This document shows, piece after piece, positions 2,912 through 40,176 of a DNA stretch of 46,703 nt. A program made the translations under genes and the position numbers. Each line of letters begins with the position of its first letter. Position 1 is the stretch's first letter. The DNA is from Paracoccaceae bacterium. Lineage in GTDB: Bacteria; Pseudomonadota; Alphaproteobacteria; Rhodobacterales; Rhodobacteraceae. The stretch is taken from assembly GCA_024227475.1 (NCBI GenBank), contig JAAEUI010000445.1:1-46703 (forward strand), written 5' to 3'. The notes under the pieces were generated by a model. It was not told where the DNA came from. It made no database searches and saw only the letters and a list, made by a program, of their open reading frames with translations.

Positions 2912-4053
2912 TTGAGCAGTATCGCCGTTTTTGACATTTTCCTACGCGGCTGCGCTACCTTGGCTCTGTTGTTCGTCGCGGTTGCCTTCGCCTACAAAAG
3001 CATGTCGTCCAGAAAGTCGCTCTCCGTCGCTACTTTGTCTGTGAGTGTCGCCGCCTATTTGCTGGTGTCTTCCCCATTTTTAAAACTTTCCGATGGCTGG
3101 CCGTCAGCCGTGCTTGTTCCGCTGGCCGGGGTTGTGCCGGTTTTTGCATACTGGGCTGGCATCGAGTTGTTTGTAGATCGGCCAGAACTTCGCTGGTGGC
3201 ACTGGTTGGTCGCACTTCTGGTCACGCTTGGCGCATGGTTATTTCCTATCCTACCCGGTGTAGCGCCACTTCGCGGCATTCTGGTCGTCCTTATCTACGG
3301 TCATCTGGTGTACATTGTCATAAGCACTTCATCTGATGATCTGGTTGAAGGACGCAGAAGGTTTCGCGGCTGGTTTTTGGTGGCCATGGCCCTGCTGGGC
3401 GGCGCTATTGGTATCGTCGAACTGTTCAACCTAGGGCATTTCTGGTTTTGTTTGGATCACAAACGAAACCAGAAGCGCAACGACGCCAGATACTTAGATC
3501 GGAGTTTCAGGTTCAATCTGGTTCAACTTAAACCGGAAATGCTCTAGATGCCAATTTGCCGGAAGCTGTGTTTCCGCTGCATGCGGCGGCTTTTTTAGTT
3601 CTTACAACCACGTTTATTTTTTGGGCCCTTCAGGTCAGGGATGATATCTGGAAGTTCCAGGCAGACGACAGTCCTGTGAGACAGCCGCCAATGACACCTG
3701 CTGAAACTGCCATTCTGGAGCGGTTGAACGACGCAATGAAGGAAGGTATCTGGCGCGAAGAGGGACTGACCGTCGGACAGTTCGCCAGGAAATTGGAAAC
3801 CTCTGATCACCGGCTCCGTAAGGTGATAAATCAGTCGATGGGCTACCGTAACTTCGCTGCCTTTATCAATGGGCGCCGCATTGAGGCGGCCAAGGCGGTC
3901 CTTTCCGACGTGCAGAAGTCTGACACGCCGATTCTGACCATCGCCCATGAGGTCGGTTTTGCTTCTCTGGGACCTTTCAACCGGGCGTTTCGTGAAATGA
4001 CAGGCGAAAACCCGACGGATTTTCGTAAGCGAAACACGGTTTCCACCGGTTGA
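2912..4053 (+). pseudogene. AraC-family regulator with membrane N-terminus, interrupted by an insertion
   Basis: Two frames together make one protein. 2912-3547 encodes a hydrophobic N-terminus with about six membrane segments. 3548-4053 encodes a final membrane segment and a C-terminal AraC helix-turn-helix domain (LTVGQFARKLETSDHRLRKVIN, then IAHEVGFASLGPFNRAFREMTG). Between them lies the palindromic element 3431-3547. Removing 113 bp (element plus one CTAG copy) gives GTC GAA CTG TTC AAC CTA GAT GCC and one open frame of 342 codons plus stop, a normal length for this family. The start is a TTG with GAGG upstream. As sequenced, the membrane part ends in 39 element-encoded residues and the DNA-binding half could only be made from a new start. 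It probably once responded to a membrane signal; the adjacent hydroxylase gene is a possible target (inference). Confidence 0.85.
3431..3547. mobile_element. 117-bp two-hairpin element inserted at CTAG in the AraC-type gene
   Basis: Bounded by CTAG at 3431-3434 and 3544-3547. The ends are imperfect inverted repeats (CTAGGGCATTTC and GAAATGCTCTAG). It holds two hairpins, about 3440-3474 (TTCTGGTTTTGTTTG pairing with CAAACGAAACCAGAA) and about 3504-3538 (TTTCAGGTT pairing with AACCGGAAA). The duplicated CTAG and the exact restoration of the host frame on removal show this is an insertion. A YTAG target is typical of several IS5-family elements, so mobilisation in trans is plausible (inference). 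Confidence 0.9.
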
Positions 4054-10902: not shown

Positions 10903-10904
10903 TG

Positions 10905-10942
10905 CGTCTAAACTGCTTCAGCTTAAACGCAAGGCGCTCTAG
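10905..10942. repeat. Half copy of the two-hairpin element between ppx and pmtA
   Basis: Read on the minus strand it starts CTAGAGCG, then GCGTTTAAGCTGAAGCAG and a complementary TTTAGACGC arm. This is almost identical to the first hairpin of the copy at 37421-37537. Only one of the two hairpins is present. It fills nearly the whole gap between the convergent ppx and pmtA stops, and its terminal CTAG contains the pmtA TAG stop. As RNA it could fold on either strand and might end transcription, though it lacks a T tract. Confidence 0.8.
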
Positions 10943-13009: not shown

Positions 13010-13216
13010 GGAAACTGGGGCGCCTGTTTTATTCTTGTGAGACCTCATAAGCAATCGCGAAGTTGGGAGCAATGCGACTCTTTCTGCTGCAAAAACGACC
13101 AGAGGAATCGAGCAACCTATTCCACGAAACCGCCGCAAAACCTGATTTTCAAGGCTTCCATCCCATCGCCGCATGTCCTAGAGCATTGGGCAATAAAGTT
13201 GATGGAGTCTCTCCCC

Positions 13217-16596: not shown

Positions 16597-17610
16597 CTAT
16601 TCGTCGCCGCAAATCGCCTGCAGGGCGATCCAGTCGCCGTCTGACATCTTCGGCCTGTAGGAACCTTTGACGGGATCGCCATCCGCGAGATCTCGGGTGG
16701 TTTTGAGCTGATTGTCAAGCGCGTGGGCAAAGGGGCTCGATGTCAGTTCCACCCTGGCAAACAGTGGCAGCAGGGTTCTTGTCTGGGGCCGTGCCAGCGG
16801 GCCGGTCAGATGAGATTTGGCAAAGTTGGCGAGCGCATCATCCCCAAGGTTGCCATTGGCAAGAAAGGTCAGCGTTGCACGCAGACCAAGATGATCAAAC
16901 AGCCGTTTCATGGGTGGCGTTTCTTTCGCCAGCGCCAGCTCCATCAGCACAAACCCGGCAGCGATCTCGGGCCCGGCGTGCTCCTCAACCAATGTGCGGT
17001 TGATCAGGATATGGCCGCCGGGCAGATGGGTGGAGAATTTGGCCCCCATATCAACGATATGAAGTTGCGAGCCCTCTGGCAGCAGCCAGTCGCTGAGTTC
17101 GCTTAGCGCGTTTTGGGCAAGCGGAGCGTTGCAGGGGCGTCCGGTCAGGCGGTTGGTGTGGCGCAGGATGTCCCCGCCGATCTGCTTCTGCTTGGCCACC
17201 GGCACAACCCGCGCGGTGTAATCCGCCGCGATCAAGGGCAGCCAGAGCACCGCAAACAACCCGACCAGAAGCGTGATCGCACCGGTCAGCACCCAACGCA
17301 GTCGCCCGGGATGTGTGCGGGTGACGCGGATCGAATCCCGCACCTTGTCAATCGCCTCGATCATGTGCGGATCGTCGATTTCCAGCGTTTCCTGGGCATT
17401 TTTGTCCGGTGCATAAAGCGTGGGAACCTCACCCTTGTTGAGCGTGCGCACGGCGGCCAGCGACCAATGGGCGATGGGCATGTCGTTCTTGTCGGAGAGC
17501 ACCAGCGACGCCGCCCCGAAAGACACAACAACCTCGCGGCGCTGAGCCGCATCAGACTCGCGCCAGAGCCCGAGAGACTCGAGCCGTTCGTATTCCCTGA
17601 GTGCTGTCAT
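16597..17610 (-). CDS. Membrane-anchored M48-like protein lacking the zinc-binding histidines
   Basis: From the ATG at 17610 the protein has 337 aa. It has an N-terminal cytoplasmic part (about 1-110), one membrane segment near residues 112-135 (WVLTGAITLLVGLFAVLWLPLI), and an extracytoplasmic domain. That domain resembles M48 peptidases by eye: LHIVDMGAKFSTHLPGG-ILINRTLVEE corresponds to the strand and loop before the zinc helix. Where M48 has AAVLAHEIAH this protein has AAGFVLMELALA, so both zinc histidines are replaced while the glutamate remains. I infer an inactive peptidase fold with a binding or chaperone-like role; the function is unknown. The M48 link is a reading by eye. It converges on lolD. 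Confidence 0.7.
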   Translation of the reverse strand: MTALREYERLESLGLWRESDAAQRREVVVSFGAASLVLSDKNDMPIAHWSLAAVRTLNKGEVPTLYAPDKNAQETLEIDDPHMIEAIDKVRDSIRVTRTHPGRLRWVLTGAITLLVGLFAVLWLPLIAADYTARVVPVAKQKQIGGDILRHTNRLTGRPCNAPLAQNALSELSDWLLPEGSQLHIVDMGAKFSTHLPGGHILINRTLVEEHAGPEIAAGFVLMELALAKETPPMKRLFDHLGLRATLTFLANGNLGDDALANFAKSHLTGPLARPQTRTLLPLFARVELTSSPFAHALDNQLKTTRDLADGDPVKGSYRPKMSDGDWIALQAICGDE

Positions 17611-31813: not shown

Positions 31814-31931
31814 CCTGAGCGTTTCATGTTCAATCTGCTTCAGATCAAATTTGAAACGCCACTTTCAAAACCCGTTGTTGTTGCTTTTCACGATTCGACA
31901 CTGAGTCGAAAGGCGCGTGAAAAGCTCTAGT
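31814..31931. repeat. 118-bp two-hairpin element in the leader of the second MerR gene
   Basis: Ends are CCTGAGCGTTTC and GAAAAGCTCTAG, so only one CTAG is intact. Hairpin 1 is formed by GCGTTTCA and TTTGAAACGC (about 31819-31859). Hairpin 2 is formed by GCTTTTCACG and CGTGAAAAGC (about 31883-31928). Same orientation as the copies at 37421 and 37894. A further dyad, TTTCCGTAGCGGAAA, follows at 31931-31945. Confidence 0.8.
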
Positions 31932-37420: not shown

Positions 37421-37537
37421 TTAGTGCGCTTTGCGTTTAAGCTGAAGCAGCTTAGACGCAAAGCGTCGGTTTAAGCCTTTGACGTGGCTGCGTTTTGCGT
37501 TCACCTTGTGAGTCAAGATAAACGCAAAACGCTCTAA
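37421..37537. repeat. 117-bp two-hairpin element downstream of the 69-aa ORF
   Basis: Starts TTAGTGCGC and ends GCGCTCTAA-like (AACGCTCTAA). Hairpin 1: GCTTTGCGTTTAAGC with the arm GCTTAGACGCAAAGC (37429-37465). Hairpin 2: GCGTTTTGCGTT and AACGCAAAACGC. This copy and the half copy at 10905-10942 have nearly the same first hairpin. The right terminus contains the stop of the 69-aa ORF. Confidence 0.85.
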
Positions 37538-37893: not shown

Positions 37894-38010
37894 TTAGAGC
37901 GTTTCAGGTTTTAACCGCACCGGTTTTGACCTGAAACACCGTTCCAAGTATCTGGTATTGCTGCTTTTCAGGTTTCATGGGTGATTCCAAAAAAACCTGA
38001 AAAGCTCTAG
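37894..38010. repeat. 117-bp two-hairpin element at the thrS stop
   Basis: Starts TTAGAGCGTTTC and ends GAAAAGCTCTAG. Hairpin 1: GTTTCAGGT and ACCTGAAAC (about 37901-37937). Hairpin 2: GCTTTTCAGGTTT and AAACCTGAAAAGC (about 37962-38004). It aligns with the reverse complement of the copy at 3431-3547 through GAAAC-CCG and AAGTATCTGG. The terminal CTAG (38007-38010) contains the thrS stop codon TAG. Confidence 0.88.
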
Positions 38011-39953: not shown

Positions 39954-40108
39954 CTTGTGGCACCTCCATCGGTTTGGCGCCTACAAAACGCCCGGTTGCG
40001 GTTATGTGGGGTGGGTTTAGTCGGTGGTTGGAAGGGTTGTCAACTGCAAGGGACGCCAGAGCGACGGCTGATCAGATTAATACGTGACACGCACGTTTCA
40101 TAATTGCG

Positions 40109-40176
40109 GTAGGCCGGGCTTAAGCCCGGCATCCTTGCTGTGCCTGCCTCATTGCCGGACTTCAGCCCGGCCTACC
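40109..40176. repeat. REP-like inverted pair
   Basis: GGTAGGCCGGGCTTAAGCCC at 40109-40128 pairs with the stretch ending at 40176 (GCCCGGCCTACC), and each half is itself palindromic around GGGCTTAAGCCC or GGACTTCAGCCC. This is the shape of a REP/BIME unit. It lies between the divergent thrS and hydrolase genes. The rest of 39954-40222 has nothing I can support. Confidence 0.75.

Follow-up and report, generated by a model that had tools for sequence, protein, structure and literature searches.

A CIR-type palindromic unit interrupting an AraC-type gene is probably a miniature transposon moved by an IS630-family transposase

Introduction

The repeats known as CIR were described in 2003 (Chen and Shapiro) as palindromes with a conserved CcrM site, as related in a 2007 review by Delihas (PMC2229807). 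In that review's treatment of them, the CIRs of Caulobacter and Brucella are approximately 110 bp long and are made up of two inverted-repeat arms and a linker, with GANTC at the terminal loop of one arm and TA at the termini. They are given as present in many copies that are mostly intergenic, with none inside genes; their target duplication is listed as '?', and the mechanism of their mobility as needing more information. The 107 bp RUP of Streptococcus pneumoniae is reported in approximately 110 copies inserted at TA, and its ends are said to resemble those of the resident IS630-Spn1 (passages on RUP in PMC2229807 and PMC3049150). Regulation of transposition by Dam adenine methylation is on record for IS10 (Roberts et al. 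1985, as cited in PMC10073500).

Here, we compare with these systems a 117 nt unit found in a Paracoccaceae draft genome. The unit is like CIR in its length, its two arms and linker, its loop GANTC, its terminal TA, its many copies and their mostly intergenic positions, and differs in having inserted into a gene, in duplicating TA and in the likeness of its ends to those of IS630. With RUP it shares approximate size, copy number, insertion at TA and ends like those of a resident IS630; however, the review's summary ascribes no DNA motif to RUP and the two-arm layout to CIR only. The comparison with IS10 and Dam involves another methylase and another transposase family, and sets an effect proven for IS10 beside one that is inferred for the unit. 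At the level of titles and the beginnings of abstracts, none of the matches listed from the open literature joined CIR with IS630, or IS630 ends with GANTC; most subscription papers are outside that scope.

Results and discussion

An AraC-type gene interrupted by a 117 nt unit

The window, by which we mean the whole 46,703 nt stretch that was analysed, is carried by a draft genome of 4.23 Mb in 657 contigs that is 79% complete. The host looks like one of the Rhodobacterales, as the plasmid-borne proteins nearest to its acyl-CoA dehydrogenase are from Paracoccus and Pseudorhodobacter (approximately 71%). An AraC-type regulator gene on its forward strand (2912–4053) is split by the unit, which lies at 3431–3547, into pieces at 2912–3547 and 3556–4053, the second of which includes the HTH_18 domain. 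CTAG is present at 3431–3434 and again at 3544–3547, bounding the unit, and excising 113 nt leaves 2912–4053 as a single 342-codon frame, in which the rejoined junction reads ...GTC GAA CTG TTC AAC CTA GAT GCC.... As the locus stands, the upstream 211-aa ORF reads through the unit and stops at a TAG at its right border (3545–3547).

The preliminary description of this locus had proposed that a mobile, non-autonomous palindromic unit splits the gene and that the gene gives a clean empty site and unit length, and all of this holds. Comparison with uninterrupted genes agrees: four same-genus homologues, which are open frames of 334–337 aa with 37–39% identity to the rejoined protein, all align to it without a gap within 20 columns on either side of the junction. 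That the unit was 'caught in the act' is too strong. As the copy nearest to the window copy differs from it at 5 of 117 positions, the insertion into the AraC-type gene was fairly recent rather than observed.

Among 32 copies to which excision was applied, the window copy alone gave a frame open for at least 500 nt on both sides (533 and 505 nt), and the next best, at 37894, gave 374 and 1012 nt. There was no signal of frame restoration at these copies in general, with 4/32 in the right frame and 4/32 and 3/32 in the two wrong frames.

Copies of the unit in this and other genomes

A search for further copies, proposed when the unit was first noticed, was productive. The unit itself returned 45 matches in the genome in a DNA search at E up to 1. 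A covariance model built from 18 copies, here named R1, with 150 of 1362 candidates scored, returned at least 149 matches (E up to 0.1), a count that includes both strands of some palindromes. Hand curation of 147 R1 matches in fetched stretches left 95 places, of which a few are nested or overlap. Second-strand matches, repeated places (L124:106-222 and L047:778-894), a match truncated by its contig's end (L129) and any that were partial or overlapped were left out; the 95 include an overlapping pair (L066 and L124:170-286), an interrupted host copy (L084:217-330) and one copy with a degraded right end (L135). Copy length is 117 nt in 74/95 and 119 nt in 9/95, and the per-position tallies and two end profiles used below are based on the 74.

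The window copy belongs to the A type. Counted from 1 to 117 on the forward strand it includes its YTAR flanks, with TA at 3432–3433 and 3545–3546 around a 111 bp body, G...C, at 3434–3544. Covariation among 18 copies places hairpin 1 at 3436–3478 (19-bp stem, 5-nt loop at 3455–3459) and hairpin 2 at 3502–3542 (19-bp stem, 3-nt loop), and comparison of copies shows a conserved linker between them (3479–3501). The GANTC position, unit bases 24–28, corresponds to 3454–3458.

Four other copies were found in the window, all on the reverse strand: a diverged one at 1642–1758 (55.3 bits), one at 31814–31930 (69.3 bits), an E-type copy with quite different stems at 37421–37537 (98.8 bits) and one at 37894–38010 (100.7 bits). 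The right half of an E-type copy stands alone on the forward strand at 10903–10942, where it was detected by the end profile (33.0 bits at 10942) and as a repeat pair. Half units consisting of a single hairpin are also present at L010, L016 and L017, and such halves, together with nested copies, could provide more empty sites. In contig C466, an F-type unit appears by eye to lie inside an A-type unit.

The features by which CIRs are described recur in this family. The unit is 117 nt long with two 19-bp stems, and in 18 copies standard pairs occupy 86.4% of the pair cells. GANTC is found at positions 24–28, the loop of hairpin 1, in 70/95 copies, though not in the window copy, which has GGATC. 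TA is present at both ends of 45/95 copies, the window copy among them. Copies are mostly intergenic, as overlap of at least 60 nt with a long ORF was seen for 2 of the 27 other copies that have long flanks, compared with 429 of 492 random places; the window copy, lying within a gene, is the unusual exception.

When R1 was used to search 40 named alphaproteobacterial genomes (40 of 80 named loci were used), six were positive. Caulobacter vibrioides DSM 9893 returned 30 matches (both strands counted; best E 1.4e-11), an uncultured Jannaschia 19, three Phenylobacterium 3, 3 and 4, and Caulobacter sp. B11 a single one. No match was found in the other 34 of the 40, which include five further Caulobacter (one labelled C. 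vibrioides T5M6) and Brucella endophytica. The stem sequences of the Caulobacter copies are quite different from those of the unit. Through R1 and by description, the unit appears to be related to the Caulobacter repeats. R1 matched 11/295 genomes across the family, under stricter filters, and 4/33 across the genus, the unit's own genome being counted in both. A plasmid collection searched with the element returned no match.

In one related genome (G010), an ATG follows within a few bases of the end of copies L075 and L071 (...CTTTAAGGAGCTATTACTATG and ...CCCTAAGAGGAGCACGTCATG), and the end of the unit may contribute to a ribosome-binding region there.

Ends like those of IS630

The IS630-type DDE domain (PF13358) is found at four places in the genome. 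Three of the proteins were scanned with Pfam, and both of those given to NCBIfam scored above the cut-off for NF033545 (IS630). L078 is the only one of these IS630 that shows both ends, a left end that reads CTAGAGCATTGGGCATTCAATTGGAATC and a right end that, read inwards, is CTAGAGCTTCGTGCGTTCAATTGG. The remaining three (L079–L081) are fragments without a left end; TTAAAGC is the terminal sequence of both L079 and L080, and L081 is truncated where its contig stops.

Scored on the unit's end profiles, the left end of L078 reaches 14.0 bits with the left profile and 22.6 bits with the right, and its right end 14.1 bits with the left profile and 9.0 bits with the right, such that the better profile is the unexpected one for each end. 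The better scores of the fragments are 10.5 bits for both L079 and L080 and 15.7 bits for L081, with five bases missing. For comparison, 13 of 93,346 window positions reach 10 bits, and 12 of these are at known copies; the 12 are the two ends of each of the five copies, an inner arm and the half copy at 10942, and the thirteenth is an isolated site near 16600. The spacing TTRAR-N8-GC-YYTAR is common to the unit and the right ends of L078, L079 and L080.

The body of the unit starts GAGC-like and ends GCTC-like and occupies a YTAR site with the TA duplicated on its two sides (see below), its ends have the same layout as, and match in register, the IS630 ends of the same genome, and each end forms part of a hairpin with arms that co-vary between subfamilies. 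We conclude, with a probability of approximately 0.87, that the unit is a CIR-type miniature transposon, non-autonomous and mobilized in trans by a transposase of the IS630 family (Tc1/mariner-type). The transposase would bind the inner part of both ends, cut at TA and insert the unit at another YTAR, and one such insertion would have broken the AraC-type gene and provided its stop codon. If this is correct, the question of how CIRs move is answered at the level of sequence, by IS630-like ends and TA at YTAR.

Movement in trans had already been suggested in the preliminary description, and it remains probable, but IS630 is a likelier partner than the IS5 family named there. The match of IS630 ends to the unit is one of register: no IS630 end nearly identical to the A-type ends was found in the genome, which is 79% complete. 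PF13586, which we take to be an IS5-type domain and which is the sole such domain searched for, gave no match in this incomplete genome. Across the genus, co-occurrence of IS630 (PF13358) and R1 was not seen, each being present in 4/33 genomes and both only in the unit's own.

Two short window sequences resemble IS630 or unit ends. A possible IS end remnant, CTAGAGCATTGGGCA at 13178–13192, immediately precedes an ATG and has the same bases as positions 1–15 of the L078 left end. The isolated site near 16600, on the reverse strand, is a weak end-profile match (14.2 bits; ATAGGGCACTTTTCGCTTAGTTTGAATTGG) for which no partner was seen.

A GANTC site in one end

The 70 GANTC sites at positions 24–28 in the unit's own genome are GAATC (40), GATTC (22), GACTC (7) and GAGTC (1); four of these 70 copies have GANTC at the other end as well, and 25 of the 95 have none at 24–28. 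Outside this genome, GANTC lies exactly 24–28 from one end in 28 of 35 CIR-like copies and from both ends in none, and within 60 nt of an end it is at 24 in 28 cases and elsewhere in two. These 35 are 10 family-scan loci and 25 of 26 named-genome loci (the partial L261 was left out), and 10 of them, mostly near-identical, are from one Jannaschia. Among weaker same-genus copies the site is at 24–28 in 1/8, and in all copies elsewhere in 29/43.

The same position is occupied in IS630. We assembled 27 IS630, consisting of L078 and 26 places from alphaproteobacterial plasmids that were selected by eye, from lists of 40 and 60 rows, to cover diverse hosts, and kept the 20 with TA[AG]AG at both ends (left out were L272, L274, L280, L283, L284, L288 and L290). 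Of their left ends, which precede the transposase gene, 18/20 have GANTC exactly at 24–28, and of their right ends 0/20. L284 and L290, which have the left end only, both carry GANTC at 24 in the candidate end. The two left ends without the site are those of Methylobacterium phyllosphaerae (L294) and Microvirga ossetica (L278), the latter being approximately 40 nt shorter than the other IS630 with poorly matching ends. In 14 of the 20, the two ends match better than in 99% of shuffles, and GANTC is at 24–28 in all 14; in the remaining six the end-to-end match (at most 16 of 26) does not exceed that of the top 1% of shuffles. As many of the copies, and the IS elements, are interrelated, the GANTC counts are not independent trials. 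Compared with the unit, the alphaproteobacterial IS630 (ISRm10-1, ISRm2011-2 and unnamed ones) are alike in their TAGAGC-type ends, YTAR flanks and left-end GANTC at 24–28, and differ in being approximately 1050 bp long, carrying a transposase gene and having ends that are not long hairpins. As GANTC is in the same place in CIR-like copies and IS630 left ends, CIRs appear to be miniature forms of IS630, with GANTC itself apparently a part of the transposon end.

The middle base of the motif varies. In the 18 IS630 left ends it is A in 12, T in 3, C in 2 and G in 1, and in the 19 IS630 other than L278 column conservation is 1.00, 0.95, 0.63, 0.95 and 0.95 for G, A, N, T and C, compared with 0.37 to 0.68 in the four neighbouring columns on either side. 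Because the middle base is free, the pattern points to the CcrM motif itself being kept. In the window copy, GGATC is one change away from the GAATC of the nearest copy, and the mark was therefore lost, before or after insertion.

CcrM-like genes are present in 29/33 genomes of the genus and in 22/22 nearly complete ones; a CcrM-type domain was not found in the draft genome itself (79% complete). For one of the CcrM-like genes (L160), of which only the catalytic part was given, the closest entries are CcrM in NCBIfam, below the curated cut-off, and 6pbd in the PDB. GANTC is rarer in the window than base composition predicts (66 compared with 174 expected).

From these patterns we infer that transposition of the unit and of IS630 could be timed by methylation. 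CcrM methylation of the site would alter binding or cutting by the transposase, and movement would then follow the replication fork, as with Dam for IS10. Put generally, an alphaproteobacterial IS630 subgroup and the CIRs derived from it would carry one CcrM site in one end only, transposition would be on briefly at hemimethylation, GANTC in CIRs would be a feature of transposon ends rather than of cell-cycle regulation, and the methylase would serve as a clock that evolved independently of Dam and IS10. We put this forward tentatively, at slightly less than an even chance. If it is true, a common kind of mobile DNA has its movement timed by the cell-cycle methylase of alphaproteobacteria, and there is no need to take the positions of CIRs for regulatory sites. 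The question of the CIR site also becomes testable, as CcrM methylation of the left end against IS630 transposition.

The most serious competitor, to which we would give somewhat better than one chance in three, is that the transposase reads GANTC as plain sequence, or that GANTC is part of the transposase promoter, with methylation irrelevant. A common register in IS and unit is what this would give, and conservation alone cannot separate direct reading from methylation. However, all four middle bases are seen, exactly as CcrM allows, and the motif is kept in units that have no gene. It is also missing from 24–28 in three IS630 from Deinococcus, Nostoc and Gloeocapsa, one of them with the same TAGAGC ends, which at 33–35% identity are distant and a weak control; the right end of the Deinococcus IS630 has GAATC at 21.

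Three IS630 left ends (L275, L276 and L078) have a second GANTC at 33 in addition to that at 24. The two are mirrored, and the resulting GGAATC-N4-GATTC is a small hairpin with two CcrM sites.

Paired arms and the case for an RNA

Folded as single-stranded DNA, the 117 nt are more stable than shuffled sequences (z -4.6; 0/200 shuffles as good). The best single fold of the window copy pairs its two ends, and the two-hairpin layout derives from comparison of copies. In the 18 copies, the 86.4% of cells with standard pairs under the two-hairpin model compares with 77.5% in shuffles, and 63 cells are changed on both sides compared with 27; sliding the partner strand by 1–3 columns lowers paired cells to 29–44%. 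End-to-end pairing (1–24 with 94–117) has some support, with 74.8% of cells paired and 21 double-change cells compared with 13 in shuffles, which is weaker than that for the two hairpins. The lower stems differ strongly between subfamilies and retain their pairing. These figures come from an alignment (A2) used in place of an earlier one (A1), in which truncated copies were mixed in and no consensus structure was obtained.

This covariation made a structured RNA a candidate, and it is part of the case for regarding the unit as an RNA or a regulatory site kept by selection at each locus, along the lines of the original CIR/CcrM speculation, and not mainly as a transposon. The conserved linker, the GANTC at the loop and the avoidance of genes by the copies would fit such a role as well. 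However, G.T and A.C mismatches are equally common in the lower stems, at 47 and 49 of 1184 cells, and similar in number in both hairpins together, at 155 and 176 of 2812, and therefore no strand is favoured as it would be in an RNA, which led us to reject the structured RNA; taken singly, hairpins 1 and 2 are skewed in opposite directions, due to fixed mismatches. Rfam, searched with the window, returned only tRNA above the gathering score and no match for the unit. Insertions into a gene and into another copy of the unit are further counts against selection at each locus.

The way in which pairs change bears on both sides of this comparison. Of the 65 changed pairs in the 22 copies of the cleanest subfamily, 57 carry a one-sided change, six a change on both sides with pairing kept and two a change on both sides with pairing lost, a predominance of one-sided change that argues against upkeep at each locus. 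On the other hand, two-sided changes that are still paired exceed the chance estimate in all three clusters for which it was made (49 compared with 6.0 in one of mixed types, 6 with 0.7, and 7 with 1.4). Pairing is, we infer, maintained mainly in active lineages, with inserted copies decaying, and there may be some upkeep after insertion or conversion between arms. Overall, we regard an RNA or locus-by-locus regulatory role as improbable, and retain the reading of the unit as an IS630-moved miniature transposon.

Target site and duplication

Where TA is kept at both ends (45 copies), it is preceded by C or T in 43 copies and followed by A or G in all 45. The left and right tetranucleotides are equal in 8/45 and different in 37/45. 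A nested insertion identifies the duplicated bases. In L084, a C-type copy lies in the linker of a B-type copy, and removal of 113 nt restores a full 117-nt B-type copy that is 90% identical to L043. On the strand of the inserted copy, the site was CTAA before insertion and is CTAG...CTAA after it, and it follows that TA is doubled, at YTAR. A second nested case, L107, is by eye consistent with TA duplication. In the window copy, G and C at the ends of the unit itself complete a CTAG on either side, and duplication of TA or of CTAG would give the same flanks. As read from these copies, the duplicated target is TA within YTAR, and the 4 bp CTAG duplication of the preliminary description does not hold as a rule.

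IS711 belongs to the IS5 family. In Brucella, it is reported to insert at YTAR and to duplicate TA (PMC2266754, in its account of the IS711 target), and the target alone therefore cannot decide the transposase family, which falls to the ends. Mobilization by an IS5-family transposase that duplicates 4 bp, CTAG, would account for the flanks of the window copy, and the IS711 target would suit such a family; it is nonetheless very unlikely given how rarely the two tetranucleotides agree, the TA seen in the nested insertion, ends that match IS630 and the lack of a match to the one IS5 domain searched. Most remote is a REPIN, two inverted hairpins moved single-stranded by a RAYT (Y1) transposase beside a tetranucleotide and without target duplication, which the paired hairpins with a tetranucleotide at each foot and two Y1 transposase fragments in the genome might suggest, but which we reject because the L084 insertion shows a duplication and has a target, CTAA, other than its left foot, CTAG, because the last base on the right varies A/G as the first on the left varies C/T, and because the ends match IS630.

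Other repeats in the window

A different palindromic repeat, presumably REP-like, is present at 40108–40176, where GGTAGGCCGGGCTTAAGCCCGGCA occurs with its inverse and GTAG is at the foot; pieces similar to it adjoin a copy of the unit in L089. At the start of the contig (1–379) there is an inverted repeat with 89-nt arms that are 99% complementary and separated by 201 nt, which may be an assembly artefact.
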